A DNA stretch of 64,000 bases from Rhizoclosmatium globosum (Eukaryota; Chytridiomycota; Chytridiomycetes; Chytridiales; Chytriomycetaceae): NCBI GenBank assembly GCA_002104985.1, contig MCGO01000001.1, positions 959,499 through 1,023,498 on the forward strand, read 5' to 3'. Below, one piece after another: positions 28,635 to 64,000 of this stretch. Each line of letters opens with the position of its first letter. Within the stretch, counting starts at the first letter, position 1. Under the pieces are notes generated by a model. The model was not told where the DNA came from, searched no databases, and saw only the letters and a list, made by a program, of their open reading frames with translations. The position numbers were made by a program, and so were the translations under genes.

Positions 28635-30042
28635 TTAGGAAGAACTTGGGTTCAATGGTGCAGCACTCGGCGTCCGACTCCGATCAACATTCTCCATCTC
28701 CAAAACAACTTCTACTCCGGCGGATTTTTTAATAAGAGGCGGTGCAACCACAGCTTTATCAGCCTTCTTTGTCATCGAGAACCGGGAATCCATGGAGTCC
28801 AAGTCCAACTCACTCTGCCCAATAGAACCCATTACCAACCCAGCACCTTCACTGTCTCCCTCCGCTCGCGCCTGGAGACGCAACAATCTTCTCGCCATTT
28901 TATCGTTGTAATCAAACAACAACGCGACACCAGCCACAATCGCCAGGAACCCCATAATCAACGTGATCCCTTCAACAGTATCATTCACCGTGAACCCGCG
29001 GAACAAAACCGCTGATGAGATGAGCGTACATGTCGTGAACGTCACGTAGTACACTGGAGTTACGATTGCGGTTGAGAATGTGTTTAACGCTTTGTTCAGG
29101 AAATGGATTTGCGCTGTCACGGTCAATGCGATGAATGCGATTAGAGGGTAGATTGGCCATTGTAGGAATTGGTTGTCTTCGTTCCAGTGGGAAAAGGTGT
29201 AGGCGAGGGAGGAGCCGAGCCCTTGGCAGGAGAGGACGAGGAATGACCCGATTAACGAGCAGGTGGTGATGTAAACCATTGGATTTGTCTCGCCGTGTAG
29301 TGGGGCGATTATATCTTTTGTGAATGGCAGAGGTAAGTTGGCGATTGGGGAGGGAGGGGATACACACAGACAAGGTACGCGATTCCAGCTCCACACAGGA
29401 CGGCATACATAATGAATGCTACAGAAACAATGATTTAGAATTCAGAATATAGGTCAATGACTCTGGTAATTACATGGCGCCATCACGTATCCGAAAAACT
29501 CTGGAATCGTGTCACTCCCATTCGACTCTGGTGCGTGCAATACTATGATAATAGCGCCAATAATACATTGTGCACATCCAACCTTCCCCGTAAAGTTTAA
29601 CCGCTCTTTCAGAAAGATTTCTGACAGGATTGCGCTGATTTGAGTATGGCATTAAAAATGAGCAATGGTACTTTATAAGCGATGTATACCTAATTACGAC
29701 ACTTATAGCTCCTAACGGCGTCACCAGAATAGCAGGAGAGAAAGCATACGCCACGAAATTCAAGACTTCGCCCAACGCCACTATTTAACCAAGTTGTTCA
29801 ATATATATAATATAATATCTTCCAATAAGACGGCGGGACTCACTTAATATCATCCCAGTCCACCACATAGGACTCTTCAAATACGCGTGTCCATCCCCTA
29901 GCTCCCCGTGTTTCGCTTTAGTGTCGAGCAGTCCGCGTTTTTTGAATATAAACGAGGATCCGATAAAGAGGCCGGACGTCAGGGCTAGAGTTATTCCCAC
30001 GTACTTGTACCACGTTGGTTCTGCGTCGTGTGGAGTTGACAT
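28635..30042 (-). CDS. NIPA-family magnesium transporter-like membrane protein
   Basis: A multi-span protein of the NIPA (DUF803) family, whose animal members move Mg2+. The start at 30042 reads MSTPHDAEPTWYKYVGI, followed by the family hallmark LTSGLFIGSSFIFKKRGLL, then GEVLNFVAYAFSPAILVTPLGA, a block with IGAIIIVLHAPES, then TAQIHFLNKALNTFSTAIVT and VYYVTFTTCTLISSAVLF, all NIPA signatures. About nine hydrophobic segments. A Ser/acidic cytosolic tail ends APLNPSSS at 28635. Five short introns. The substrate is inferred from the family only. Confidence 0.9.
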
Positions 30043-30298
30043 TCTGGAAGGGCTGGATGATTGGTCACTCTCTTAGTTATTTTTCGAGAGCTGGATCAGA
30101 GGTTTACAGAATGAAAACAGTTGATGTAATTAGGGAAGTGCGGTAGTAGTGAGGGTGATGACTGTCGGGTTTTGTAGAATGGGATTTACACTTCAGTGCA
30201 AAACACAAGAGATCGTTTTTTTATTATTTGAAAACGCTGTATTTCTGCATTCAAAGAGGAATTTAATTTATTGAGATTTTGAGAACGAGGATCTATCT

Positions 30299-31426
30299 TC
30301 AACCTAAGTTTGTTTTTCGTCTCTTCAACCCAAACATTTCACGTGTGCCTCCATTGTTTTTCATATCATTTTTTGTGAAATATTCCCATCCATCTTCACA
30401 TTTAGAAATTATATCTTGGATAGCAATCCGGTTCTGTATACGGTACACATCAAACTCGATTTCCGACAGGTTTGAATTTGAAGACCTCATAATGCAATCC
30501 AATAAGAGGATTGCAGAGTCCTTATCTAGATCTGTGAAACGAATAGTCTCCAATGCTGGACAATCAAAGAGAAAGTCAAAGGATTTCCCTTTCGCAAAGA
30601 AAATATTAATCTCTTTTAATCCTATTACATGTTTGAGGTTACGCATGAAGGGAGTTACAGAATCATACATGACAAATTCGATCTTTTTGATTTTAATATC
30701 TGATAGAATATTATAGTTGTAGATTGCAGATGAATCTGAGTCAACAGCATTTTCATCAAAGTCAAGAAAGTCAACGCAACCAACACCATACTTTTTAAGC
30801 GTTTGAAGTATTTCGAGCATTTTAAACGAGCTAAGGGATAGTTTGCACGAGACAGAAACTGTAGGGGTAAGGAATGGCCCTACTTCGTTCAAGTACTCCA
30901 GCTCATGTACTTCGAGAGATATCGTAAGCCCGTGTTTCTTCAATAATCGCACATAATTGAAGAAATACAGTTGTGAATTTCGAAGTGCAGCTAGATCACC
31001 GGGGAACTCAAAAGTAGGCCAAAGCGACTCGACATACAACTCTTCATCGTCGATTGTCGCTAACCCGAGATCGCATATTGATTTTGATATGTATTTGTAG
31101 TATGGGACTGCGTGGCAAAGTGGTATGATTGATTCAGCATCCACGAAAGATGCTATGCGATCGAGGATGACCTCAGGCAGTGATTCAAGCGATAAACCAG
31201 ATGATGTATGTAACGGTCTATGAGTACTATATCTGGATGGTGTTGGTGTAGTTGGAGTTGGAAGTAAGGCATCTTGGATCTTTGTGATTGGAGGCCCGTG
31301 AAGCAAGTATCGCAGTGTATTGATGTCAGACAGGGCATTGGCGAGAAGAAGCTCAAGTTCGTTATTTCGAGCTTGGAGGGATGGAACAAGGGAACAGCAG
31401 TCACACTGGCAGTTGCAAAAAGACAT
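30299..31426 (-). CDS. F-box-like family protein
   Basis: A single-exon frame of 375 residues. It opens MSFCNCQCDCCSLVPSLQAR, then NNELELLLANALSDINTLRY, PPITKIQDALLPTPTTPTPS, the F-box-like LESLPEVILDRIASFVDAES and LCHAVPYYKYISKS, and a roughly 220-residue tail with leucine-rich repeats of low regularity, ending GLKRRKTNLG. Complete with no frame break. The Cys-rich start followed by a short coiled coil is unusual for F-box proteins and is shared by all copies in this window. Target and partners unknown. Confidence 0.75.
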   Translation of the reverse strand: MSFCNCQCDCCSLVPSLQARNNELELLLANALSDINTLRYLLHGPPITKIQDALLPTPTTPTPSRYSTHRPLHTSSGLSLESLPEVILDRIASFVDAESIIPLCHAVPYYKYISKSICDLGLATIDDEELYVESLWPTFEFPGDLAALRNSQLYFFNYVRLLKKHGLTISLEVHELEYLNEVGPFLTPTVSVSCKLSLSSFKMLEILQTLKKYGVGCVDFLDFDENAVDSDSSAIYNYNILSDIKIKKIEFVMYDSVTPFMRNLKHVIGLKEINIFFAKGKSFDFLFDCPALETIRFTDLDKDSAILLLDCIMRSSNSNLSEIEFDVYRIQNRIAIQDIISKCEDGWEYFTKNDMKNNGGTREMFGLKRRKTNLG

Positions 31427-44287: not shown

Positions 44288-45132
44288 CTACATGTATCTG
44301 ACCTGACTACTTCTTTGTAACCTGAACTGCTTCCTTACGTTGTGCAGCCACTTTGGCACTTCCTCTCTTGAATTCCATAAAAATAAACGCAAGGCCACTA
44401 AAACCACCCATACAATGTAAATAGTTTGCAAAGCCGGATTAACACTCATGTCATCTGGGAGACCGGCAATGTACAGATTGATACCAAGTGGAATGTTAAC
44501 GATAGAGACAACAAACAAAATACGACCCAACCAATGATGGAAATGGTCCCACCACGGAGTAGACTCTCTGTCTGGCTTGTACAAGTGGTTGATGAGAACA
44601 CCCAGCGCCATCTGAACAAAGACGGCAATCCAAACAAAGAGTCCAATGCCCTGTTATTAAATTGGTTGGTGGCGCACGACGGTGGCAATGAAAAATCAAG
44701 ACTTACCACGTGAGCACCGTTTGCTGCAACATCAAAGTGGTCAGATCCTGTGACCATGTAAATGAGAACCAACGCGACAACGTTAAGGAGAAAGGCGAGC
44801 GTGAAAAGATGTAATGGAGACGGAACCAAGTCCATGTTGCGAAAGATTGCTTGGACGTTTCGGCGCTTGTGTGAGTGGAATCTTTCAAGTAGCGAGCGAC
44901 TGCGATTCCGGCTGGAGCGAGAAAGCCCCATGCAACTGCCATAAGGGCTCCATGGATTACAGTCTATTAATAGTAAGGGCGTGTTATTATCGAGGCGGAG
45001 AGCAGTAAACAATGGTTACCAAGTGATCGGCGTTGAGATCGTAATCTGAGGACCCATCATCTGTGCCATTGTTGCTGCCTGCATATCATCGAGATTTCCA
45101 ACTTGTGCAATCCAAGCGTCCCAAGAAGACAT
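44288..45132 (-). CDS. Cytochrome b561-domain protein A
   Basis: A membrane electron carrier with haems held by histidines across helices. The start at 45132 reads MSSWDAWIAQVGNLDDMQAA. Spliced landmarks: TVIHGALMAVAWGFLAPAGI, ARYLKDSTHTS, TWTWFRLHY, LAFLLNVVALVLIYMVTGSD, VQMALGVLINHLYKP and WWDHFHHWLGRILFVVSIVN, with candidate haem ligands in IHGAL, RLHY, the helix after GAH and HHW. No DOMON or reductase domain precedes it. Two one-base deletions are likely (near 45070 and 44800), as copy B runs smoothly through both places. Converges with the 7TM copy 2 gene, stops only 17 bp apart. Confidence 0.8.
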
Positions 45133-45275
45133 TTTTTGTTTGTTTTTAGTCTGTTCTTGGCGTTGAGAAACAGTGGCGTTTTTAATAGCCCTAGATGGAT
45201 CACCACAGCTTGGTCATAATTATCCCACGTGAGATAAACTGATTTTATTTCCATTTCGTTTATCGATAACCAAAA

Positions 45276-46071
45276 TTAACTGTCCTTGTTTAGGAGGCCA
45301 CGGGCCTTCAAGTTGTGTCGTCTAATTTCCATAAACCCAAAGCCAAATGCGACAGCCACAACCCACACAATGTAAATGGCCTTCAAGGAAGGGTGGACGG
45401 TCATGCCTTCTGGTAAGCCCTGGGAGTAAAGATTGATTCCGAGAGGAATGTTCACGATACAAAGAATGAAAAGGATACGTCCAAACCAGTGGTGAATGTG
45501 ATCCCACCATGGAGTTGATGCACGATTCGGCTTGTACAAGTAACTGATAAGAGCACCAAGAGCCATTTGGACAAAGATTGCGATCCAAATAAAAAGACCG
45601 ATACCTAGAAGGTAGTTGGTACGAGTATAAGATGCTATTTATGTTCATTGATCTAATAAGTCTCACCACATGAGCTCCGTTTTGATTGACATCAAAATGG
45701 TCTGAATCAGTAACTTTGTAGATGAGTCCAAATGCGATCATGTTCAAGATGAAGACAAGACCAAAGAGAATGTAGTGCAGGCGGAACCAAGTCCAAGTCG
45801 CCAAAGACATCTTGGAAACATCGTCATTGGAGTGAGCCACACCTTTCAAGTAGCGAGCAACTGCAATTGCGGCCGGAGCAAGAAAGACCCATGCAATACC
45901 CATAAGGGCTCCATGGATCACGGTCTAGTGTGTTCAAAATCAATTTAAGATTGAATCAGATAAGTGCCTTACCAAGCGGTCATTGTTCATATCGTAATCG
46001 CCTTCATCGGTACCATCTTCGTAAGGCATTGTTTCGTTCATTGCATCGCGCACACTGTTCCAAACAGACAT
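45276..46071 (-). CDS. Cytochrome b561-domain protein B
   Basis: Tandem paralogue of protein A. The start at 46071 reads MSVWNSVRDAMNETMPYEDG, then TVIHGALMGIAWVFLAPAAI, TWTWFRLHYILFGLVFILNM, IYKVTDSDHFDV, MALGALISYLYKPN, WWDHIHHWFGRILFILCIVN and IPLGINLYSQGLPEGMTVHP, ending LLNKDS at 45276. Three exons. Compact b561 core only, about 240 residues. The likely role is transmembrane electron transfer (ascorbate or ferric reduction in relatives), but the substrate cannot be read from the sequence. Confidence 0.85.
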
Positions 46072-46242: not shown

Positions 46243-49200
46243 ATGCCGCCCAAAAAGAAGGCTGAACCAGCGCCCGCACCAGTGAAGGGATCTGGTGGAA
46301 AAGGAGGAAAAGGAAAAGAAGTTGCCCCGCCTGGTAGATATGAATAGTGTAGTGAAATGATGGTGGTGTGCTAAGGACCACACCAGAACCCGCTCTCTTT
46401 GTCCCTACTCCTGGAGTTAAGCTTACCAAGGAACAGCATGCCATCTTGAGAGCCCAACGAGCAAAGGCGATGGAGGAAGAAAAGAAGGCGCTCTTTGGCT
46501 CTTGGACTGGTCAGTCAAACAATTACCCTGTCAAGTTACTTACTTACTCTTCCTCACCAGGAAAGACCCCTCTCAGTGTCCTGTACGAACACTGCCAACG
46601 AATGGAATGGGACAAACCTGGCGTGACACCAAACAAGAAAGGAACAAAAGGCTTTGTGACAACAATCACTCTCTCAAAATGGATCCAAAGACCCGCTCGA
46701 AAGTCGAATTTACGTATACGGACCCTGATTATTCCCATGTGTATCCTACGGAACAGGAAGCAAAACATTGGGCGGCTACGTATTGTTTGCATCGTGTTGC
46801 TAGTCACCTTTCACTGCATCGTCTCTTACCTCCAACGCATCAGACGTTTTGGAATGAATTGGAAGCGATTCGGAAAGCTGAAAGCGCCGATGTGCAGAAA
46901 TATGATTATGCACCGGATCCGTTTTCTGTTGAGGAGCAGAGAGCAAAGGATTTGAAGGAACGGGAACGGGAAGTGAAAGTTGAGTTGGAACGGGTTGCAA
47001 AGAGTCGGAGAAAATGGCGAAGCCGTGGGAAGCGTATCAGAAAGTTCAATTGTCTGCGGATATGCGGGCTATGGTGGAGGAACTAATTCGAAAGGAAGAT
47101 GCGGGTGAAGATGTTGCGCGAGTTGTGCCCTGGATGAAGCTAGACGTGGAGAGATTGTGGATTCGTTGGTTGCAAAAGGGTTCCGAAAAGTTCATGTTGA
47201 AGAGGCCTTGGAATATTCGTCGGATGTTTCGAGCGCGATTCATTGGCTTTGTATCTACGTTCCTGAAGACGACTTACCGGCTGCGTTCCATGCGAAACCC
47301 ACGAATGCTGTCACAGTGGGACAGTCTACTACAGATGCTTTGTTGCGAGAACGCGCGGCGCAGTACCTGATTCATTCTGGATTCAATAAGGAGACTTGTG
47401 AGCGGGAATATGACGCATGGGAGGCTCGGAGTTGAAAGCACTTGCTTCTCTGTGTTCAAAACTGGCAGACAATGGTGAATCAAAGCCAGTGCCCGCTGGA
47501 GTTGAGGTTTCGGAGCTGAACGCACTTTGGACTGAAGAGCTTGAAGCTGTCGAGTCTATTCTTGGGACAGATTCTGTTTCAATCAATTCGCGAAATGGTA
47601 TGGTTGAAATCCGGATTGACTTTTCAACGTCTGTGAGTGTCGTCGAGGATGTTGTTGAATTGCATGTTGGTCGTTTTGATGGGTGCTTGTATCCATATGA
47701 GTTGCCACCTGTTATGGTTGTTTGTTCCACCGTACCAGCGTATATTCGATTGGCGCTGTTACGAGGACTGGTACGCGAAGCAAAGGAGAAATGGTTGGGA
47801 TCAGGAATGATTTTTGAGATGGTTCAGTGGATTCAGGAACAATTCGTGCAAGTATTGGAGAATCCGGGAGTGTCGCTTGTGGAGTTGAAAAGGGTTTCGG
47901 ATGGAGAGAAGTTGAAAAGTGTTAAAGCTGCTGGGACTGTAGCATCGCCATTGTGAAAAAGAAGGGACGAGCTGCTGTTGCTGAGACTGAAGAAGATATT
48001 CGAGCCAAGGGGCAGGAGTTGAAGGAAAAGTACGACGCCAAGGTCTTGACCGAGGAGTATAAGAGAATGTTGCGTGGAAGACAGAACTTGCCGTCGTACA
48101 AATTCAGAGACCAAATTATTGATGCAGTAGAGAAAAATCAAGTTGTGATTATTTGCGGAGAAACTGGATGTGGAAAGGTTCGTGCTTACTTTTCTTGTTC
48201 CGGATGTTGACAGAACCTTGACAGTCAACGCAAACGGGACAATTCTTGCTTGAGCATTTAGTTTCTACTGGGCGTGGAGGTCGCTGCAACATGATTTGTA
48301 CTCAACCGCGCCGAATCAGTGCCATATCCCTCGCCGAACGAGTTGCGGCTGAGCGTGCCGAGGCTGTCGGCGAGTCTATTGGATACAGCATTCGCGGAGA
48401 AAATGTCCGGAGTCCTTCAACGCGTCTTATTTTCGCAACGACGGGTATTCTTTTGCGGATGCTGCAGGGAGACCCGTCGTTGGCGAAAGTTACGCATGTG
48501 ATTGTTGATGAAGTTCATGAACGAAGTGGTTTGTATTTATTTGGAGGTGCGAATCAACAAATGCTGATTTGAACGTGATAGTTGATAGCGACTTCTTATT
48601 GGTCATTCTGAGGGATCTTGTTGCGAAACGACCAGACTTCCGATTGGTACTTATGAGTGCAACAATTGATTCAGAAACTTTCTCGGGATACTTTGGAGGT
48701 GCACCGGTGTTGCAGATTCCCGGTTTCACTCACCCTGTCACTGATTTGTGAGTTTGTTGAGGTATTATACAGAATTGAAGTATTGACTTTCTGTATAGGT
48801 ACTTGGAAGATGTATTGCGTCTCACAAAATATGTTCCTGAAACCCGTCGAGCGAGGATTGTGCAGAAATCGGACTCTTCCAATACAAAAGAAGAAATTGA
48901 AGCATTACGAACAAGTTATGAGTCAATGTCGTTGGAGCCAAAAGCTGTCACCTGGCTTCTGAAAGAATCCGCTTTCGATGCTGTTGATTATAACCTCGTC
49001 GCTGCAACTGTCAAGTACATTCATGAAACGAATCAGGGCGACGATGGAGCTGTGCTTGTGTTTTTACAGGGTGCAATGGAGATAAGCGATGCATTGATGC
49101 AATTCGAGAGGCCGTTGATGGTGTTGAGTGTCTGCCATTGCATGCTCAGTTGAGTTCGAAGGAACAAGGATTGGTGTTCCGTCGTGTGAAGAAGGGCCTG

Positions 49201-50700
49201 AGAAAGGTTGTTGTGGCAACAAATGTTGCTGAGACTAGTATCACGATTGATGATTGTGTGTTTGTTATTGACGCTGGGCGTGTGAAAGGTGTGTCTAGTA
49301 TTTGAGGGTTTTAAGACTGATTTGGGGTTTAGAAATGCGATACGAAAACTCGACCTGTGTCTTGTTGATACGTTGGCGTCTCGGGCGAGTTGTAAACAGC
49401 GACGTGGACGTGCGGGTCGTGTTCGACCGGGAACTTGTTATAAGTTGTTTACGAGGAACTTGGAGCAAACTCAAATGGCATCGCATGCTGTTCCTGAGAT
49501 TCTTCGGGTTCCGTTGGAGCAGCTTTGCTTGAGTTTGAAGGCTATGGGTGTGGATGATGTCAGATGTTCCTTGGGAAAGCAATTTCAGCCCCAAGCGAGC
49601 AAAACGTCGATGGTGCCGTTCGAGTTTTGAGGGACTTGAGGGCTGTTGATAAAGTCACAGATAAATTGACACCGCTCGGAAAGCATATGGCGAGTTTGCC
49701 TGTTGATTTACGAATTGGAAAGATGTTGGTATATGGAGCGATTTTCGGTTGTCTGGGAAGTGTTTTGACTGTTGCTGCGATTCTGAGCAATAAGAGTCCA
49801 TTCATGGCTCCGTCTGATCGAAGAGATGAAGCAAAGGAACGGCGAAAGACGTTTATGTGGGATAAAAGTGATTTATTGACAGACTGTCGGGCTTATGACG
49901 GTTGGGTAGAAGCGAGTGGGAAAGGAAAGCGGGCTGAGGCTGAATTCTGCGAAACGGTAAGACGTGCGAAGTATCATTTGCGAAACTAACTGACCTACAG
50001 AACTTTTTGTCAATGGCCACATTTACTGCGATATCTGATTCCAGAAAACAATATCTGGATACACTCGTTGATATTGGTTTCGTTAATGGAGAGGAAGCGA
50101 AACTGACTCTGTCTGGAGGCGGAAAGTACAACCTGTACTCCAAGGACTCAAGAATCGTAAAGGCTGCCATCGCAGCAGGATTATACCCCCAAATTGTTTC
50201 CATCAAGCATCCTGACATTACGTAAGTCATAATTACATTTCCTCCTGCACGCTGAAATACATTTACGTCAGTTACGTCGAAACAGCACATGGTGCAGTTG
50301 AAAGGGAGCCGCTTCCACACGAACTGGAATTTATGACTGAAAACGATGGCCGCGTTTCCTTGCATCCCAGCTCCGTCCTTGCAGAAATCGGAAAGTTTGA
50401 AGACCTCTCTTGGTGTATCATCAAAAAATGCAGACAGCAAAGTATTTGTCCGGGACGGAACTATGATATCGCCATGGCCTGTGTTAATGTTTGGTGGGGA
50501 CTTGGAAGTGGATCATGAAGCGAGGACTGTGGGTGTTGAAGGAGGTGCACGGTTCCAGGCTTTCCTAGAGTTGCGGTTCTTGTCGGAGGGTTGAGAAGGT
50601 TGTTGGATCGCGTTTTGGAGAAGAAGATTCGCGAGCCTGGATTGGATGTTTTGCGACAGATGTGGGGGCAGTGTTGGTGCGTCTGTTTTGTGAAAAGTAG
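46243..50700 (+). CDS. DEAH/RHA-type RNA helicase, DHX57-like
   Basis: The start at 46243 reads [20 protein letters not shown]. Then [39 protein letters not shown], a UBA-like part ([20 protein letters not shown] with SAIHWLC) and an RWD domain ([15 protein letters not shown] to [11 protein letters not shown]), the pair seen in DHX57. Helicase motifs: I GETGCGKSTQTGQF across an intron, Ia [76 protein letters not shown], then the helicase-associated and OB-fold regions ([14 protein letters not shown]). At least six frame breaks, such as 46677 and 47013 (both in AAAA), 47425, 47955 and 49570, each fixed by one base. The end near 50700 is provisional. RNA unwinding is inferred from the motifs. 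Confidence 0.85.
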
Positions 50701-50795
50701 ATAAACGAGAAGAGGAAAGTAAAGAAACAAATTCGGATTCTAAATTGCGATCGATCGAAGATATTTAAAGTGCGTTTGAAAAAAAAGAGCAAAGA

Positions 50796-51948
50796 ATGGA
50801 TGACACTATGGGACTCTCATTTTCCACTCCAACTGCCACTGAAGAAGGGACTGTCACTGTTCTTAAACCGGGGAATTAATCCAGGCTGATTCCGCGCTGG
50901 AACTGAGCCACCACTGCGAAGAAGACCGTCTTTCCAACCAACCAACTGAACTTGTACGCGAATTCTGAGTTTTCTCGATGCCAAGAGCCTTGCGCTTGTT
51001 GGAGCTACTAACACGCGCATGCATTGTTTGGCGGTCAGGAACTTCTTTGGAAAGACTTGTGGTGAGTGAAAATGACAGGGGGTGTGTGCCACCGAATCAC
51101 ATAACTAATACTTTGGCAGTAAGAACAGATGGGCGGATAAGAAACACCACGGATACATGTTGCATCCATTCGTGGAGTACAAAGAAATCTTGGGCCGTTT
51201 GAGTACTGAGGAAAAGCGGGATGTTTTGAGAAGGAGATTTCAAAGCTCGGAGGTTGATGACGATGTATTGGATCAAGAGCTCTTGGATACTGTACCGTAT
51301 AGATGGGATGGAGTTAGAATCTTTGAACCGCGAATGTGTGGAAAGTGGCAGGTTTGTTCGATTTCGAGTTGGTTGACAAAATGGTGTGAGTTAACAGCTG
51401 TGAAATAGGCTAGTTATGCTGCAGCTGAAATAGACTCCACGCGACAGAGATTGTCCATCGCGGAATTGAACACGTATGAGTGGTGGTACTACGGTGAGAG
51501 GAGTTTGATATGTGTCCGTTGAGTGTGCCAACTGAAACTGTACCTGACAGACAACTGGAACAGAGAATTCTATGGAAATGGAAACGGTTTGTTTCATGAA
51601 TATCGCATCAAATGAGCCCTAACTTTCGCATCGAGTGCCTTTAGACAACGGAGCCGTTTTAGTGAAGTTCTTTACGAATGGAGTCCGTGGGAACGTTGAA
51701 GGTCCTCAATGTCGTCCAAGAATGTCTTCTTATCAGTTCAATCGTGATGGAAGTATTCAAGTGGGTCAGTATCCAAGACATTCTGTCCCAAGACGTTTAG
51801 CTGATTGGGGGTGAGTTATTTACACGCAGTTTGAGATATATTGACGGAATATTGGTTTAGATGGGAGTTTCATAATCCGTATGTGACGTATACTTCCGCT
51901 GAACCTGTCCCTGTGGTTATCGGGAATTCGCGCGAGAAGTCTGCTTGA
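50796..51948 (+). CDS. F-box protein (unrelated to the Cys-rich F-box-like family)
   Basis: From the ATG at 50796 (MDDTMGLSFSTPTATEEG) the pieces are LIQADSALELSHHCEEDRLS, NQPTELVR, RILSFLDAKSLALVGATNTR, MHCLAVR, LLWKDLCKNRWADKKHHGYM, then WDGVRIFEPRMCGKWQ and the C-terminal NVEGPQCRPRMSSYQFNRDG. PTELVRxILSFLDAKSLxxV and LLWKDLC are a textbook F-box, suggesting an SCF substrate adaptor. The pieces sit in different frames at about 50870, 50950 and 51045; each is joined by one extra base, so missing bases are more likely than introns. The region after the F-box may bind the substrate; no WD or LRR repeats are seen. Confidence 0.7.
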
Positions 51949-52457
51949 AACGATTTGATTATTTGACAGATTGGAATGTCCCTTGCCTTTTCTTCTCTTT
52001 ATTATTTATTTTTTGGTGACGAACGATACGTTAATTGAATCCGGACCTCCAAAGTCCTGACTTGCCCAATAGATCAATATGTGTCTCTTTTGTTTGAGAC
52101 CACTGATCGTCTCAGCTTTGTTCGAATTCAACCAACTGTATTATCGCCAATTCAGTTCACGCTGTTTAATAAGGCACTCCATTCCGTGTTCGAGTAGTTG
52201 GATCGGCTGCAGATACGTCGGTTTTCGAGTCAAACATCTAAAAAGAGCCGGTAGCCGCTGTGCAAGGTCGTAGTTCTTATCGTTGGTCTTCGGGGGAAAC
52301 ATGACTTAGTTGTTGCTAGGGAGATTTACAGGACAGATCAGGCAACCGTTGAACCTGATTTAGTAACTGCGAATTCAATAGAAGGGCAACGATTGCATCA
52401 GTTTAGAACTGGCTCGTTTCTTTGGTTGCTTTAATGGGGGCTCTCGTATTGTAAATG
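51949..52457. other. Boundary between the gene-dense part and the subtelomeric part
   Basis: About 500 bp with no convincing frame. To the right of it the base composition, gene content and repeat density change. Confidence 0.45.
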
Positions 52458-52994
52458 CTATTCTGTAGTATAGTTGTGAAGGGAGTGTGGTCCCTCCAAA
52501 AAATCAATTTCGAGAACAGTCAAGTGTACCCAACCTCTTGACCGCCACTCTCTCTGTCCCGCTGCGCCGAAATCGATCACATCTTGCAATAACGCGTGAT
52601 CCAATCCTGCCGCTCTCTCTCGCCGCGACAAAGACTCTGTACTTGTGAGTTGAACCAATTTAAGGGTGGCCGTATTGATCTGAATGTGATGCTTACGGCC
52701 ATCAGGCAACCGCAGACTCGCTTTCATATTGGAATACTCTGCTGTTGTTGCTCCATATAATTCAAGGTTGGAACGTTGACTCAAAGGTAAGAACCATGTG
52801 TAATACACACTGATTGACAAACGTCGACTCAAATTGACCTGCTCTCCATCTTTACATATCATTGGAGGAAACCAATCCAAGCCTGGTTTGTTGTTGACTC
52901 TGTGTGTTGGAATTGTGCTTATCAAAAACCAGTTGCTGGATCTGTATCCGTGAATGTGAATGCTCTGGCTGTGAACACAAAGAAATTGGTTCAA
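52458..52994 (-). CDS. Uncertain 178-residue open frame
   Basis: An ATG-initiated frame with a plausible composition in its middle (RLPDGRKHHIQINTATLKLV) but no recognised domain. Its first part overlaps the 5' end of the TIR-NACHT gene on the other strand, so at least that overlap is doubtful. It may be a relic or noise. Confidence 0.2.
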   Translation of the reverse strand: MNQFLCVHSQSIHIHGYRSSNWFLISTIPTHRVNNKPGLDWFPPMICKDGEQVNLSRRLSISVYYTWFLPLSQRSNLELYGATTAEYSNMKASLRLPDGRKHHIQINTATLKLVQLTSTESLSRRERAAGLDHALLQDVIDFGAAGQREWRSRGWVHLTVLEIDFLEGPHSLHNYTTE

Positions 52995-55293
52995 GATGCG
53001 TTCACTGCCGAGGCTCCTGTAGTCATTGACTCGAATGAATCAAAATTAGACACAAAACCTTCTCCGAAATCTGTTATTAATCCCAGTCAAGCAGAATCAG
53101 GTTTGATTGTTGTTGCTAATATTGCCAGGTAATAACACAATCATCAGATCATGTGGACCATCAAAAGCCCACTGCTGTGCCTGAACATAAAGTGCTCGAA
53201 ACTCAAACAAGTAATGATTGTACTGACGTAATATTGAAACCTACAGCTCAATCTCACTTAGGTGTGTTCTAATTGATTATAAATGACTGATTGATTAACA
53301 CCACCTGTATCAGCTGTTACTGCGACCATAGTTGCCCCTCCTTTGGCTCTGCCAGGTACATCTACTGCAGTATCCAATTTAAATGGCACCCTTGTTTCTA
53401 TCCAGCCTTACAAACAAGATGATGCACGTGATACTGTCGAGCTTAATGAGCAAACTGTCAAGTGTTTGAAAATGAAGGTGACAAATCAGTTCCAAGAATG
53501 CACTGTGGCTAACATTAAATATTGAGATTGCTGATTGCTATCCTGATTTGGTCACAACTTCAATAATACAAATCTACTACTTACTGTACAAAGATCAAAC
53601 TCGACGAATGTTGTCAAATCAGGCTCGACTGGGAATTATTCTGAGTCCTCTCAAGAATACATTGACTGACATTTGGTTTGAGTTCCACACCCTTTATGTG
53701 GTCACAATCAGTGCCAAAAATGGCAGTAACCTTCCACCAGTTGTTGTGGAGCTCAAAGAAGCTGATATGAATGAACTTCTTGACAATGTAAGTCTTTTCA
53801 ACTCAAATCTATCATTGATCTTACCTAAATACAGATCACACTTCACTTTGGTTGTGAACGGACTGTCAAAGTTTATCATCAGAATAAGAAATCTTCTGAA
53901 CTTGAAAGTGTTACCAATCAAGAGTCTCTCAAAAGAGCATTTTTAGATTCATGTGAAGTTCTTTTTGAACCTATCAAACATATCCAAAACTTACCCCAAG
54001 CTGTTACCCAAATCACTGAACATAATCATGCAACCCCAAATACTTTCAAGTATAACAAACTTAGGGACTTGTTTATTTCATACAGCTGGTCCACCTCAGC
54101 AGAGGTGGATGCTATTGTGAACAAACTTGAAACAGATACTAAACTGCAAATATGGAGGGATAAAAGAGATATGAATGACAACATATATGAGTCAATGGGA
54201 GGTGGCCTGGCTGGTTGCAAGGCAGTTGTTGTTTTTCTCTCTGAAAAGTATTTGGTGAGTCATTTTCTTATCCCAAACAAGGTCTGACCTTTTGGCATAG
54301 GCTTCAGATAATTGTAAGAGTGAACTTTTTTTTGCACGAGATTTGAAGAAACCAATCATTCCTGTATATATGTTTAAAGAAGGCACTGATATTGAGTCTT
54401 TGATGAGATCAGGCAGTGGTTCTTTCTTTATACTTAGTGGAAAGTTGTACTTTGATTTCAAAAGGATGGATGCAAATGAGCCCAAGTGGTTTAGTAAGTT
54501 TAATGAGCTCTTGGCTGGTATATACAGTATTCTTGACCAAAATATACCTGCGGCATTGTCGTCTGATTTGTTGGAAACTTGGCTTGATCCAGTAGTGTTT
54601 GAGAATGATCTTGAAGCTTATAAATCAGAGTATGTTCCTGGAACAAGGCTTTGGATGATTCCAGCCTTGGAAGCATGGTCACAGACTGGTGAAAGGGTGT
54701 TGTACTTAAATGGTGGTGCTGGAACTGGAAAGTCAATTATTGTGTACAGTTTGACAGTGAATTTGCCATCCAATTTTCAGATTGGAGCCCTATTCATTTG
54801 CCGATACAATAATACACGCAAGAGTGATCCTAAAATTCTTGTCTGTACCATTGTGAGTGGCCTATGCAAATCATTAGGTGGCATTTTTAAGCAGCATGTT
54901 GAAATGTCAATGGAAACTGATAAAATCCATGTGAGTGAAGGAAAGCAGACTCTTCTACATCATCCCATAGAAGCATTTCAAGTCTTGGTCTTGGATGGAC
55001 TGAACAAATTACCCCTAGATGACTGGAAAGAAAAAACACTTCTGATTGTGATTGATGGTTTGGATGAGCTGAATATCAGTGATCGCCACTATGTGTTGAC
55101 TATATTGACAAAGTTGTGTCCGCAACTTCCTGCATTTGTTAAGATTTTTACTACTGGTCGACCTGAGCGGGATATTTACTATACCTTACAAAACCTCAGT
55201 CCATTTGTGCTAATGCCCACTGAAGGAAACAACCGAGAAGATTTGGAAAAATTTGTGGAGTATCGCTTAGGTTCTTTTTGGAAAATCATTTAG
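52902..55293 (+). CDS. TIR-NACHT (NLR/STAND-like) protein, C-terminally truncated
   Basis: Likely an innate-immunity-type or allorecognition-type protein. Upstream exons (from about 52818, start codon not found) encode Ser/Val-rich sequence, then DMNELLDN, ITLHFGCERTVKVYHQNKK and LRDLFISYSWSTSAEVDAIV, the TIR box 1. The TIR continues KLQIWRDKRDMNDNIYESMG, CKAVVVFLSEKYL, and, across a 50 bp intron, ASDNCKSELFFARDLKKPII, where the Glu of CKSEL fits the NADase glutamate position. Next a NACHT: Walker A YLNGGAGTGKSIIVYSL, Walker B TLLIVIDGLDELNIS, and sensor FTTGRPERDIYYTLQNL. Sequence ends at SFWKII with a stop inside the first telomere-like repeat, so the winged helix and repeat sensor expected after NACHT are absent. 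A frame break near 53510 remains unexplained. Confidence 0.78.
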
Positions 55294-55398
55294 GGTGAGG
55301 GTTAGGGCTAGGGTCAGGATTAGGGTTAAGGTTAGAATTAAAATTAGGGTTAGGGTTAAGATTAGAGTTTATACGCTTAGGGGTTAAGATTAGGGTTC
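55290..55398 (+). repeat. Degenerate interstitial telomere-like (TTAGGG) tract
   Basis: About 110 bp of TTAGGG variants (GTTAGGGCTAGGGTCAGG, GATTAGGGTTAAGG and so on), beginning with the T of the TIR-NACHT stop codon. TTAGGG is the telomere repeat of many fungi. The tract runs into GGGTTCTATACTGTTGGATTA, which recurs at 59022 and 59448. Confidence 0.85.
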
Positions 55399-55833
55399 TA
55401 TACTGTTGGATTAAGTAGAGACAGTCAGAGATCAGGACATCACAGTTATAATGGATCAAGTAATGAGGTATAGTTTGATCAAGAGCAGTTGCATCCCGCG
55501 CATTTTTGAGCAGAGATAGAGAGTGTCACAATCTTTGATCCAAGTGTACTGTAGAGATGTTTGGGGTTGCAAATGGATCATCAGGACTCTGTAATCGTGA
55601 TCCAGTGTTTCTGTGCTCTCCCAATTTCTCTCCCAGTGTAGCCTGTGTGTGTTTGTTTTGGCTCTTGAAATATGCAATCAATAGCTGCTCCACAGTTCTA
55701 TCCACTCTTTCTATCCAAATCTACTCTTCTCTCTTCTATATATCAGGATTTATTACAAAGGTTTTTGTGGTTGGAAAGGGTTTAGACAACATCTTGTTTC
55801 TGCTTGTTCACACTCTCTTCACTGTAAAAATAG
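55399..55833. other. Subtelomeric spacer, no supported gene
   Basis: About 430 bp. Short frames on both strands have no family resemblance. It lies where the first coding exon of the following zinc-finger gene would be expected, but no equivalent of the copy-2 first exon is visible. Confidence 0.4.
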
Positions 55834-57561
55834 ATCTCCGCTTCAATGCCCAGAAGCAGAATGCAAGGATCTCCCCTTGTTTGGAAGCAAGTATTCATTG
55901 ATAAAACATGCAAGGTTACACCATCAACCTATTGTTGGAGTTTATTACTGGAAAAATGACTACACAAGTATACAATTGTTTCTCTTTTTTAGTCGATAAC
56001 TAAAACAAAGATTTTTATAGGAGAGGATGTACCTACTATGATTCAACGAAATCCAGAAAACAAAATGTTCAAGTGCAATAAGTGTAGCTATGCTGACCCC
56101 TTTCCTGAGAAGCTTCAGAAACACGTGAAAATTACAAAGTGTGGTGTTGGCCATCCTGCTAGACATGGTTTCATGTGCTTGGATTGTCCCTATGTTTGTG
56201 TGACTGAACGATCCATGAAATTGCACTGTCGGACTAAACATTCTGATAACCCATACTGGGCTTTCAAGCCAACTCTTGTGACAAAAGTTCACAGTAGCAT
56301 CTATAAAATGTTTAAGCCTGAGGAAGGATTCGATGCTCGTCAGAGAGCCAAGCAACTTCAAAGCCTTGCTCGGAAACAGAAAAAGGTGAAAAACACAGCT
56401 GGATCACGTTCAAAAGCATACCTCTCAACTGGATTGGAAACTGCTGGTTTGATTGCCTCATCAAGCAAAACAAACACACCATTTTTAAACAATGTGAGTT
56501 CAATATATTCATAGCAGGTGGTTGTTTACTTAATTTTATGGTAGATGGGATGGGACAAGTTGGTGTTTGGGGTTGATGCTATCAAGAATCCTGCAAACTA
56601 CATTGCCTTATTGAAGGAGTCAAAAGACACCAAAGCTGTCTTTGTATGTTGTCGTCTGTTCTTGGAAAAAGTGAATGAGTTGGCATCATTGCCTGGAACG
56701 CAACCAACCCGCACTGCTATCAAAAATGCTGGTCGTAAGTCTACAAATGACTCTGGCTATGCAGGAAAGGTTTTCAAAGCTATTGACGTCAAAACCAGTA
56801 TTCCAATCTACACTAGAACACTGGGCCTTTTTGTTGTGATGTTGATTGCTCGAATGGAAGGGAAACCCACTGGCACAAAGCTGCCGAAACTCCGTGAAGA
56901 AGTGAATGAGGCTGTCGATGAATTTGTTCAATCTCTTGATGTCCCCCTTCTTTGCAGAACAGATGCTGTCTTTCAAAATCAGCAACAGGCTTTGGTCAAA
57001 TTATTGAGGATTGTACTGTTCGAGGACATTGGGTTTGATGGCCTTGACACTAGCCGAATCCATTTAGTGGAGGAGTTCTTGATGCTCAAGTTTTTGCAGT
57101 CTGATGGCACATTTTGCAAGGAACAACTGATGACTGGGCCATGTACTCATATTCTTTTTGCCTCTTGTTGTCTTGTCTTGGATTGGTGCCAAGAAATAGC
57201 TTCCTTTGGTTCTTGGATGCAAAAAGCTGAAAAAGAAAAGTAAGTTATGTTCTATTTATGTTGGTTATTAATGTTTGGAAAAGAGAGATCAATCAAGTCA
57301 TTGAGCTCGTAAGCTATGGGAAACACAGTCTTCCATATGCAAAAATGAAACAGTTCAAGTCAGTCTGTGGATTGATTGTGATGGGCAGTAACACAGCCAA
57401 TTTAATCAGCAAGCATTGGGACTATTCTCTGCCAAATGAACCAAAATTGGTCATTGACAATCGGGTTGGGATTTCAAAGACAATGTTCCGTGAAGGGTGT
57501 GCAAATTACTTTCAAGTTATATCTGAGGACTTGGACTCTTTGTTGTTCTATACTCTTGGGT
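55834..57561 (+). CDS. C2H2 zinc-finger protein, OrsD/DUF3505-like, copy 1 (truncated at both ends)
   Basis: Exons: a Cys/His finger CPEAECKDLPLFGSKYSLIK with HARLHHQPIVGVYYWKNDYT; then FKCNKCSYADPFPEKLQKHV and GFMCLDCPYVCVTERSMKLH with CRTKH, KPEEGFDARQRAKQLQSLAR, GSRSKAYLSTGLETAGLIAS; then MGWDKLVFGVDAIKNPANYI and a long helical region; then VIELVSYGKHSLPYAKMKQF to DNRVGISKTMFREG. The GFxCxxCxYxC...HxxxxH pattern recalls fungal OrsD-type (DUF3505) proteins, a subtelomere-loving group, but the match is moderate. The coding sequence stops making sense at LLFYTLGLVG, where it runs into a TGGGTTAG-rich junction and the minisatellite. No 5' exon found, so likely a pseudogene or partial gene. Confidence 0.55.
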
Positions 57562-57580
57562 TAGTTGGGTTAGACCCATG
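57552..57580 (+). repeat. 29 bp telomere-like junction sequence (copy 1)
   Basis: ACTCTTGGGTTAGTTGGGTT and the following AGACCCATG are identical to 63937-63965. In both places a coding region is cut off exactly at this sequence. Confidence 0.8.
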
Positions 57581-57721
57581 CTACCATGCTACCATACTAC
57601 CATGCTACCATGCTACCATGCTACCAATTCATGCTACCATGCTACCATGCTACCAATTCATGCTACCATGCTACCATGCTACCATGCTACCATGCTACCA
57701 TGCTACCAATTCATGCTACCA
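57580..57721 (+). repeat. 8 bp minisatellite array (ATGCTACC), array 1
   Basis: Repeats of ATGCTACC interrupted by AATTC spacers. Because 8 is not a multiple of 3, every forward frame reads the same peptide period MLPCYHAT every 24 bases, which creates long but meaningless open frames. Confidence 0.92.
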
Positions 57722-57800: not shown

Positions 57801-58063
57801 GCATAATGAAAAAAAAGACGTAGCTACATTGAGTCCATGCCTCACCAAATAGATAAACTATTTCTAAGGTTACTGAAAAAACAATCTGAAAAGCTTTTAG
57901 ATGTTGCAATAAGATGAGAATGATGCTACCAAAAATTGTTCAGTATAAATAGTCAGGCTGATATTTTTTAGACCTGCAAAAGTCAGTCTTTTAACACTAA
58001 TCTTGAATTCTCTCCTATGCTACTTTGCTGGTATCCTGCCATCATACCTAAAATTCATGGTGC
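57801..58063. other. Spacer between minisatellite arrays, no gene
   Basis: About 260 bp, AT-rich, no supported frame. Confidence 0.4.
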
Positions 58064-58379
58064 CATGCTACCATGCTACCATGCTACCAAAATTCATGCT
58101 ACCATGCTACCATGCTACCATGCTACCATGCTACCATGCTACCAAAATTCATGCTACCATGCTACCATGCTACCATGCTACCATGCTACCAAAATTCATG
58201 CTACCATGCTACCATGCTACCATGCTACCATGCTACCAAAATTCATGCTACCATGCTACCATGCTACCATGCTACCATGCTACCATGCTACCATGCTACC
58301 ATGCTACCAAAATTCATGCTACCATGCTACCATGCTACCAAAATTCATGCTACCATGCTACCATGCTCCCATGCTACCA
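58064..58379 (+). repeat. 8 bp minisatellite array (ATGCTACC), array 2
   Basis: A longer array of the same unit with a higher-order pattern: runs of about 3-9 units separated by AAAATTC. One unit near the end is ATGCTCCC. Confidence 0.92.
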
Positions 58380-58390
58380 TCAAAAGTTCA

Positions 58391-61586: not shown

Positions 61587-63148
61587 GTGGTGGAAGGATT
61601 TAGTGGTATCAAACTTCAGCGGCCGATTACTCGAAATCCAGACGGTCGATTTAAAATCCCCGCGGTGAAAGTCAATAAAACATACCATTCTTGCTCTGGT
61701 CCAAGTTTGGTGGGTGTGCGATCGGTGGTGCGGGAGAGCGAGGGGAAAGAGTTGCTGCCACTGGAGGTTTGCTCTCAGACTGCTATTCGCAAAAAAATGT
61801 CAGGACTTAGAAAAAAAGCGAAGAAGCAGTCTGGATTCATTCAGACAAGGTTTGTGGCAAGAGTGAGTTGTTGATCAAGTTTGGAAATGTTGGAGTTGGT
61901 GTTGTGTGAGCTGTGGCTGGGTGTGTTGGGTGGTTGGATCATCAAATGATAGCTCTTGAAGTACTCTCTTTACATATCCATCTTAAAACTATCTGTCTAT
62001 TCTCTATTTTGAGGCAATTATTGCTGAAGTGTTGATTCTTGTTTGAAATTCAGACAAGAACTTTAAAATCATTTTCTGACTCTATGAAACAACAGATCCA
62101 AAGTTGAATGCCCCAACCCAGAGTGCAAAGACATTGCACCCTTCAACAACAAATTTGCTTTGGGAAAACATTATAGATTAGTCCACCAGAAGGTTGTTTC
62201 TGTTCGTTATTGGATAAATGACTACACAAGTGAGTGCTTTGATCTCTTTTCTTATTAAATACTAAACTTTGATTGGTTTGTTAGAAGAGGATGAGCTCAC
62301 TTTTATTCCGAGGGATTCTGAGGACAATCTGTTTCACTGCAACAAGTGCAACCTTGCAGTAGACTTTCCCGAGAAGCTCCAAAGCCATGTCAAGAAAATG
62401 AAATGTGGTCTGACCCATCCTGCCAGATTTGGATTCATGTGCCTGGACTGCAACTATGTTTGTGTGTCTCAAAGTGCCATTAGGGTACACTGCAGGGCTG
62501 AACACCAAAAGAATCAGTATTGGGGGTACAGACCAACTCAAGTTGTTAAACTGTATGCACGAGTCTTTGGAATGTATAAGCCAGAAGAAGGATTTGATGC
62601 TCGCCAAAGAGCCAAGGAACTGAAAAGCCTTGCACGTAAACAGAAACAGATCAAAAACACAGCCGGATCACGTTCGAGAGCTTACTTGTCTACTGGATTG
62701 GAAACTGCTGGTCTGATTGCCTCATTAAGCAAAACCAACACACCGTTCCTGAATAATGTAAGTGTTTTGGGGGGCCAAAAATTACCAGTTAACTTTTTCG
62801 GATTAGATGGGATGGGACAAGTTGGTTTTTGGTATTGATGCCATCAAGAACCCAGCAAAGTACATTTCTATCTTGACAGAGACAAAGGATACCAAGACAG
62901 TGATTATGTTGTGTCATTTGTTCTTGGAAAAAGTCAATGAGTTGGCAACTTTACCTGGGACCCAACCAACCCGTACTGCCATCAAGAATGAATCCACCAA
63001 TGACACTGGGTATGCAGGAAAGGCTTTCAAGCCTATTGACATGAAGGGGACCATCATCAGGAAACTCAACCCAACATTTTGCAGCATGATGATGCATATG
63101 CAACATTACGAATACATTTCTTGGGATTTTTCATATTTGAAATGTTAA
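61587..63148 (+). CDS. C2H2 zinc-finger protein, OrsD/DUF3505-like, copy 2
   Basis: First recognised exon from about 61587 (LQRPITRNPDGRFKIPAVKV to SGLRKKAKKQSGFIQTR, no certain ATG), then KVECPNPECKDIAPFNNKFA with LGKHYRLVHQKVVSVRYWIN, LFHCNKCNLAVDFPEKLQSH, GFMCLDCNYVCVSQSAIRVH with CRAEH, KPEEGFDARQRAKELKSLAR, STGLETAGLIASLSKTNTPF, then MGWDKLVFGIDAIKNPAKYI. The arrangement and introns match copy 1, which shows they are duplicates. Near 63065-63090 the frame shifts (AYATLRIHFLGFFIFEML should follow) and the sequence degrades, so the C-terminal half is missing. A DNA-binding role is inferred from the fingers only. Confidence 0.55.
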
Positions 63149-63336
63149 GAATGCCTTACAAATGCATGAAATGCAAAATTATGGATCTCACATGGAAACG
63201 TAATAGATTGGACATTCAAAGTAATTGTTTGGCATATTATGCATGCATTATTGTGTATAATAAATAGCTAACTTATGTATTTTTATTCATTCTTAAAAGA
63301 CAGATACAAGCAGCTTTTATAACTTTCACGAGAGAC

Positions 63337-63940
63337 TCAGTCAGACAAAATTGATTCAGTGTCAGATCCAGCAGAAAAATTGTAACTCTTGCGGATGATA
63401 GACCAAAGGTTACGTTCTGCATACGTATTCAAATAAACCTTTCCAGACTTTCCGTTTTGTCCATCCTGAAAATAAGGAATAATGTGAGCTCTTCCTTTGA
63501 TTGAATTGAGAGGAGCCACAACAATCGAATTCTTGTCTCCAACATGGGCAGGCTCAAGAATGAACAGGCCACTCTTGTTTTGTTGGTGTTGCGGTAGGGC
63601 CTGGTAACGTTGCAATACCACAAAATGTGATATATTATTGCTATCTTGATGTTTAACAGCCATGAAGTGTTTTGCTCTTCCAACAAGGAACTGACTTCCA
63701 CCCAGGCCAGACTCCATGACAGGAGGCTTTAGCTTATTCAACGTGTAGACACAAAAGTCTGGCAATCCCTTGTTGCCAATTCGAAGAAACTCAACATGCT
63801 GACTGCTGTTCTTGTCAAAATTGACAATTTTGGCGGAGCGAAATAAAGTATGCTCCTAGATTTAAAAGATAAGCTTTGGTTTTTTAACACTGTGCTTACC
63901 TTGACAAACAGATGAATTTTGATTCCATACTTTCTAACTC
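63337..63940 (-). pseudogene. C-terminal fragment of a Plavaka/KDZ-like transposase
   Basis: Read right to left: KYGIKIHLFVK, an intron, EHTLFRSAKIVNFDKNSSQH, VEFLRIGNKGLPDFCVYTLN, HFVVLQRYQALPQHQQNKSG, then the diagnostic-looking VVAPLNSIKGRAHIIPYFQD and KVYLNTYAERNLWSIIRKSY, ending near TESILSD at 63337. The AHxIPxF...vYlNxYaE arrangement resembles the C-terminus of Plavaka/KDZ-type fungal transposases. The N-terminal catalytic part is absent because the sequence is cut by the 29 bp telomere-like junction at 63937. Confidence 0.5.
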
Positions 63941-64000
63941 TTGGGTTAGTTGGGTTAGACCCATGGGGGGGGTTAGGGGTTAGGTTAGGATTAGGATTAG
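63937..64000 (+). repeat. 29 bp junction (copy 2) followed by telomere-like G-rich repeats
   Basis: After the same 29 bp as at 57552, the window ends in a G run, then GGTTAGGGGTTAGGTTAGGA and TTAGGATTAG. It may be the approach to a chromosome end or another interstitial tract; the window ends here. Confidence 0.8.

Follow-up and report, generated by a model that had tools for sequence, protein, structure and literature searches.

The stretch of DNA analyzed here (the window; 64,000 nucleotides) forms the terminal part of contig C1, at its right end (positions 959499-1023498 of 1023498), in the 56.9-Mb assembly of Rhizoclosmatium globosum, a member of the Chytridiomycota, and it carries a gene encoding a TIR domain joined to a NACHT NTPase. 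We consider it highly probable that this locus is a recently truncated copy, probably the allele of one haplotype, of a chytrid NOD-like receptor with a TIR effector (TIR-NLR), whose full form comprises an MGxxxS N-terminus, two predicted ubiquitin-like folds, TIR, NACHT, and WD40. The coding DNA of the window copy is joined to TTAGGG-type repeats at 55289/55290, its WD40 part and start codon are lost, and a full-length open counterpart is present on another contig, C188. The gene is already annotated as R. globosum BCR33DRAFT_11774 (here P0001; 559 amino acids, 100% identical in the protein search).

The gene parts, the TTAGGG-type array, and the adjoining repeat element described below lie on the forward strand. 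In the spliced window product, three Pfam families exceed their cut-offs, namely TIR_2 (4.4e-16, 59.9 bits against 28), NPHP3_N (3.1e-17, 63.7 bits against 24.8), and NACHT (5.2e-7, 30.1 bits against 26.7), and no NCBIfam match comes near a cut-off. The TIR domain (TIR_2, residues 169-287 of P0001) occupies 54072-54474 and is split by an intron at 54255-54300; the NACHT NTPase (residues 361-519 of P0001) occupies 54694-55170 and contains Walker A GGAGTGKS and Walker B LLIVIDGLDEL. Splicing as read from the sequence places the TIR and the NACHT with both Walker motifs in one open frame across exons 5-7, which are free of stop codons until their end, and the introns proposed in the initial annotation at 53780-53840 and 54250-54303 correspond to GT-AG introns at 53788-53834 and 54255-54300. 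The same joined product is predicted in two other Rhizoclosmatium species (P0002 and P0003, 86% identical), and a TIR fold is present in the structure model of the orthologue P0002. The central proposal of the initial annotation, a complete TIR joined to a NACHT in an NLR of a fungus, is therefore backed by hidden Markov models (HMM), predicted fold, and homologues. No HET domain was found among the families listed at E up to 10 for P0001 (8 families) and P0002 (10 families), with TIR_2 present in these lists, and NB-ARC was likewise absent from the 8 families of P0001, where NPHP3_N and NACHT appear instead.

The glutamate that had been assigned to the NADase position (Glu237 of P0001; 54322-54324) falls in the aligned column of the family. 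Of the 36 rows, two have a gap in this column; a Glu is found in 32 of the remaining 34, with Asp in P0065 and Ala in P0068. A weak alignment obtained with phmmer (E 0.65) also pairs it with a Glu in PdTIR 3h16. The TIR could serve only as a scaffold without NAD+ chemistry, with the tandem ubiquitin-like domains or partner proteins carrying the signal; the conservation of the Glu speaks against this, and we regard it as possible but on balance unlikely.

Alignment of the window gene with its close copies and with the exon structure of C188 shows that the TIR and NACHT lie where the initial annotation had placed them, but that its gene extent of 54060-55293 begins too late, the start lying approximately 1.2 kb further upstream. 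The four-copy DNA alignment places the equivalent of exon 1 at 52861-52885; the start codon of its MGGxQSKP motif is present in C188, C42, and C224 and altered in the window copy. Equivalents of exons 2 and 3 lie at 52933-53100 and 53148-53261 by alignment to the C188 exons, followed by exon 4 at 53314-53477, in which the first ubiquitin-like domain is predicted to begin at about 53388 from the fold of P0002. Exon 5 (53527-53787; P0002 fold and annotated P0001) would encode the rest of this domain (to about 53688) and the second domain from about 53695, and exon 6 (53835-54254; exon boundaries and fold) the end of the second domain (about 53972), a linker, and the first half of the TIR. Exon 7 as it stands (54301-55293) comprises the second half of the TIR and the NACHT, and is cut, with a stop codon at 55291-55293 inside the TTAGGG array. 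The annotated P0001 model starts at an ATG in exon 4 and cuts into the first ubiquitin-like domain.

The broken gene is joined directly to a degenerate TTAGGG array (55290-55369; 80 bp, 13.3 copies, 71% matches), the first repeat of which supplies the stop codon of the frame; in the window, (TTAGGG)2 with at most one mismatch occurs 5 times against 0.16 expected. DNA identity to the close copies on C188, C224, and C42 (95.6% over 50269-55289, 85.1%, and 82.9%, respectively) stops in all cases at 55289 or 55290, the start of the array. The window product stops short of the helical part, and the C-terminal WD40 sensor repeats, present in the C188 copy and in the family member P0016, are absent from it. 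With the start codon changed and the frame cut at 55289, the window copy has lost both its start and its sensor.

The gene had been described as ending in telomere-like DNA at a subtelomere. The array indeed adjoins the break, but it is interstitial, as C1 runs 8.6 kb further and ends at window position 64000 in further TTAGG-like DNA; we accordingly rejected the array at 55290 as a terminal telomere. The subtelomeric placement is borne out, the junction lying 8.7 kb from the end of C1 within repeats common to many contigs. Of the 44 matches listed for the array with its flank, at least three are located at extreme contig ends (on C63, C112, and C412). The natural reading of the join would be that the chromosome broke inside the gene and that telomere repeats either capped the broken end or served as filler in its repair, subtelomeric repeats having extended the end later. 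A mis-join of the gene and subtelomeric repeats during assembly would also create a NACHT-TTAGGG junction: the last 8.7 kb consists of the kind of sequence in which assemblies fail, up to three contigs are collinear here, and the public protein with the same end derives from the same contig and so lends no independent support to the junction. However, the position of the break coincides exactly with a telomere-type repeat whose G-rich strand points outward, as repair of a real end would leave it, and an artefact appears to us distinctly improbable.

Spliced at the same intron positions, the C188 copy has 8 exons separated by seven GT-AG introns and encodes 1647 residues without an inner stop, and its product is predicted to comprise two ubiquitin-like folds, TIR, NACHT, and WD40 (Pfam TIR_2 1.4e-16 and WD40 9.9e-65, among 25 of 44 families listed). 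Past the break point, its frame continues to the end of the NACHT region and then across a stretch to which no Pfam family was assigned and the WD40 domain. C188 is collinear with C1 at four places over approximately 25 kb (30000-30800, 97%; 45000-46000, 100%; 48870-50368, 96.7%; 50269-55289, 95.6%), and because it is collinear at all four places tested, it is probably the other haplotype of the window locus. In the simplest reading, haplotypes would stand apart in the assembly and the isolate would carry the truncation in heterozygous form. Non-haploidy is described as common among early fungi (PMC6784888; here and below, statements on cited papers refer to the parts of them that were available), and no paper on the ploidy of R. 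globosum was found in the literature searched. C1 and C188 might instead be ectopic duplicates of a subtelomeric block, since subtelomeric repeats recur among contigs and the other copies, on C42, C224, and C382, are more distant from the window gene (82.9-88%). Against this stand the extent and identity of the collinearity (95.6-100%), a third contig, C372, that is collinear at two of the places (97% at 30000-30800 and 98% at 45000-46000), and other TIR or NACHT loci that are likewise paired with equal scores on two contigs (e.g., C26/C57 and C13/C251); we consider such duplication unlikely. A further candidate, in which C188 would be no more than a duplicate that ends near 50.2 kb, was rejected when direct DNA and short queries matched C188; a 10.2-kb DNA query had missed this contig, long queries in that search not being exhaustive.

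The substitutions between C1 and C188 form a mosaic, in which 41 of the 47 located between 53250 and 55289 sit in a 235-bp tract (54203-54437) that covers the Glu region of the TIR, and at 33 of these 41 sites C188 carries the letter of C42. Such clustering suggests that gene conversion between family members probably took place at 54203-54437. When the changes were polarised, 21 fell on the window lineage (6/6/9 by codon position) and 7, all at third positions, on C188. This apparently neutral pattern was dropped as an argument for neutral decay of the window copy, the test being invalid because the changes concentrate in the probable gene-conversion tract.

Ahead of the TIR, structure models predict two ubiquitin-like folds that the initial annotation had overlooked. 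Two models show a bbabb-a-b topology in the N-terminal domains, and one of them matched linear di-ubiquitin (3b08_A; E 2.2e-4, probability 1.00, with no aligned range printed), which did not appear among the 50 rows of the structure search with the other model. The second structure searches listed TIR and NTPase chains throughout and were uninformative on the N-terminal domains. No Pfam match of seven domain segments exceeded a cut-off, and neither ubiquitin nor PB1 was named among them, the three weak matches being GRHL1_C (0.011), RNase_3_N (0.031), and GIPC1_GH1 (0.14). PB1 was rejected as the identity of the second domain, as none of 13 PB1 matches in the genome (E up to 1) lay at TIR-NACHT loci, and "ubiquitin-like fold", the designation suggested by the models, replaces it.

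The window gene belongs to a family that is expanded in this genome. Clustering reduced the 94 TIR_2 matches to 92 places and 77 NACHT-type matches (34 plus 43 picked from 88) to 52 loci; a TIR is followed by a NACHT on the same strand at 38 loci, haplotypes not being collapsed, and 54 of the 92 TIR places have no adjoining NACHT. With haplotypes kept apart and only the best candidates scored, the figure of 38 should be read neither as the number of genes nor as its upper limit. For the 31 of the 38 loci on contigs of known length, the nearest contig end lies at a median relative distance of 0.29, 0.5 being expected (Kolmogorov-Smirnov p 0.007), which is weak evidence of subtelomeric placement because contigs also tend to break at repeat families. 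The C-terminal parts of family members vary, including WD40 (P0016, P0019, P0057, and P0062), ankyrin (P0055), and Sel1 plus SAM (P0054), and in P0060, P0068, and P0069, relatives from outside the genus, the TIR is too close to the N-terminus for the ubiquitin-like pair. The search for relatives that the initial annotation had proposed located them in the two other Rhizoclosmatium species and, by an iterated profile with 35 chosen proteins, in ten other genera, all Chytridiomycota, where a TIR stands beside NACHT-type domains (Entophlyctis, Physocladia, Podochytrium, Chytriomyces, Zopfochytrium, Polychytrium, Quaeritorhiza, Nowakowskiella, Obelidium, and Rhizophlyctis). The statement that TIR domains are uncommon in fungi is supported kingdom-wide (PMC13142454; PMC10197012), but in R. 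globosum TIR-NACHT genes form an expanded family, and the combination recurs across the Chytridiomycota.

Several predicted proteins and loci show other arrangements. R. globosum P0055, on a contig of 166348 bases, combines a ubiquitin-like pair (by eye), TIR, NACHT, and ankyrin in one model, followed by an apparent second ubiquitin-like pair and a partial TIR. In Rhizoclosmatium hyalinum P0020, an extra stretch precedes the ubiquitin-like pair and, by eye, no TIR lies between the pair and the NACHT, possibly reflecting a swapped effector. P0009 of Rhizoclosmatium sp. JEL0117 has LRR families beside TIR_2 and NACHT, with the LRR-like part in front; it is either a fusion or a gene-model error, since LRR was not found in fungal NLRs (PMC4986451). 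Four tandem TIR_2 matches approximately 2 kb apart and without a NACHT occur at C55:49939-55892 and C112:918849-924838, and these two contigs may be haplotypes.

The WD40 sensors of family members differ in how similar their adjacent units are, the identity over the best four-unit stretch being 92% in P0057 and P0062, 73% in P0016, and 58% in P0019, and low in P0053 (28%). In a set of 33 distinct units of 42 codons, each at least 55% similar to a P0016-derived consensus, differences that change the amino acid are above the overall synonymous level at columns 1, 2, 4, 20, and 39. By simple counts rather than a model-based test, the proportion of nonsynonymous differences (pN) relative to the overall synonymous proportion (pS) is 1.51 at column 2, 1.47 at column 4, and 1.38 at column 20. 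Columns 2, 4, 20, and 22 rank 2, 3, 4, and 8 of 42 for amino-acid variation, with conserved columns (3 and 21) between the variable pairs; of the 111930 possible column quartets, 0.03% reach so high a mean, and no other of the 42 offsets gives the spacing pattern as high a score. The quartet sites lie on the loop surface of any propeller. Because of this location, part of the variation may be generic, the comparison having been made without an ordinary WD40 protein as control. In the HNWD genes of Podospora, codons 7/9 and 25/27 are under diversifying selection (PMC1805685; PMC2873952), and the chytrid quartet has the same spacing and the same conserved middle residues.

TIR-NLRs in chytrids are already in print. 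Fungal NLRs with an N-terminal TIR are described as a small group that includes Chytridiomycota (PMC10197012; PMC9815663), TIR is reported in NLRs of plants, bacteria, and Chytridiomycota with four references (PMC9815663), one of which, PMC7075850, places TIRs in fungi, and TIR_2 is listed among the domains of some fungal proteomes (PMC4102429). A 2026 TIR atlas contains almost no fungal TIRs, those found being from R. globosum only (PMC13142454). Like the family described here, the reported proteins have a TIR followed by a NOD domain; neither tandem ubiquitin-like folds nor the copy number in a single genome are described for them in the parts available, and the window copy differs by its truncation. 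A ubiquitin-clan Crinkler N-terminus occurs on other fungal NLRs (PMC9815663), and no description of tandem ubiquitin-like domains before a TIR, or of the WD40 quartet pattern in chytrids, was found in the literature searched. With the Podospora anserina HNWD proteins (HET-E, HET-D, and HET-R), the family shares NACHT-WD40 and, in some members, 42-amino-acid repeats that resemble one another to varying degrees; for the repeats of fungal NLRs, a study that also links HET to TIR gives high internal conservation as 85% over 100 amino acids (PMC4986451). In contrast, the chytrid effector is TIR rather than HET, the window copy has no WD40, and the C188 repeats are divergent. Plant TIR-NLRs (RPP1, RPS4, and RUN1) share a TIR plus a STAND NTPase and provide the best solved-structure match, whereas the chytrid protein has NACHT/NPHP3_N instead of NB-ARC, WD40 instead of LRR (in C188), and an additional, predicted ubiquitin-like front end. 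Unlike SARM1 and bacterial TIR NADases, the chytrid protein shows no ARM/SAM region and has a receptor-type NTPase instead.

By analogy with these systems, the WD40 propeller of an intact member would bind a variable self or foreign protein, the NACHT would then assemble the protein, and the clustered TIRs would cleave NAD+ or make an NAD+-derived signal, so that the cell would be killed or arrested, as with plant TIR-NLRs and SARM1. NADase activity and an immune function are thus suggested for the family, and the self/non-self or antiviral role raised in the initial annotation is plausible for the C188 copy and its relatives on the basis of architecture and WD40 variability. It is not supported for the window copy, which, lacking sensor and start codon, most likely makes no working receptor.

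Several observations weigh against the interpretation of the locus as a truncated allele of such a receptor. The allelic status of C188 is deduced from collinearity, and genome searches gave no match to the TIR-NACHT gene on C372. Exons 5-7 are open and their ratio of nonsynonymous to synonymous substitution rates (dN/dS) against three relatives is 0.19-0.26, which leaves decay by substitution without support. The annotated 559-residue model from the exon 4 ATG implies that a shortened product could be made. The WD40 repeats of the C188 copy are themselves divergent (26% identity between adjacent units), unlike young arrays, pN over overall pS at column 22 is 0.85, under the synonymous level, and the structural match to RPP1 is loose over the whole length (TM 0.14-0.26, rmsd 19-25). 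The shortened gene might instead be functional, as a sensorless TIR-NACHT that is constitutively active or acts as a helper or dominant-negative partner of the intact allele; in addition to the existing gene model, the intact Walker A and B motifs and Glu and the stop-free exons 5-7 would fit such a role. Nevertheless, the start codon of the close copies is lost, the first ubiquitin-like domain is cut in the annotated model, and the product reaches neither the helical nor the WD40 part, which makes a functional short form very doubtful in our view.

With the locus read as a truncated allele, the window copy would exemplify how a receptor is lost through telomere-type truncation while the same isolate keeps an intact counterpart. 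The TIR places ahead of a NACHT (38 of 92) point to an NLR family with a plant-like effector, many members of which add a Podospora-like WD40 sensor and which has relatives across chytrid genera. With such a family, one can test whether early fungi already had enzymatic TIR signalling and in what relation it stands to the Dikarya HET domain. As a tentative and rather speculative synthesis, chytrids might run a true TIR-NLR immune or allorecognition system: an NAD+-cleaving TIR-NACHT-WD40 multigene family, tethered by a myristoylated N-terminus and assembled via the tandem ubiquitin-like domains, whose propellers diversify at the four positions of HET-E, with subtelomeric breakage producing null alleles and isolates being heterozygous for receptor specificities, as at this locus.

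The DNA beyond the array is repetitive. Next to it lies a 2.15-kb element with a C2H2 zinc-finger frame (55393-57546), of which at least 8 other copies at 99-100% were found (40 of 188 candidates for repeats downstream of the array were scored). Copies of its end repeat form inverted pairs, spaced about 5 to 8 kb, on C122, C206, C223, C246, and C401, and the element has the appearance of a young DNA transposon; downstream of the C188 gene there is a relative at 73%. The 8-mer CCATGCTA is repeated in tandem at 57576-57708 and 58063-58380, where several frames are open. The repeat at 61867-63054 is found at no fewer than 16 other places at 94-98% (two on C400 and two on C412), and the adjacent repeat at 63055-63939 on at least 5 other contigs at 99-100%.
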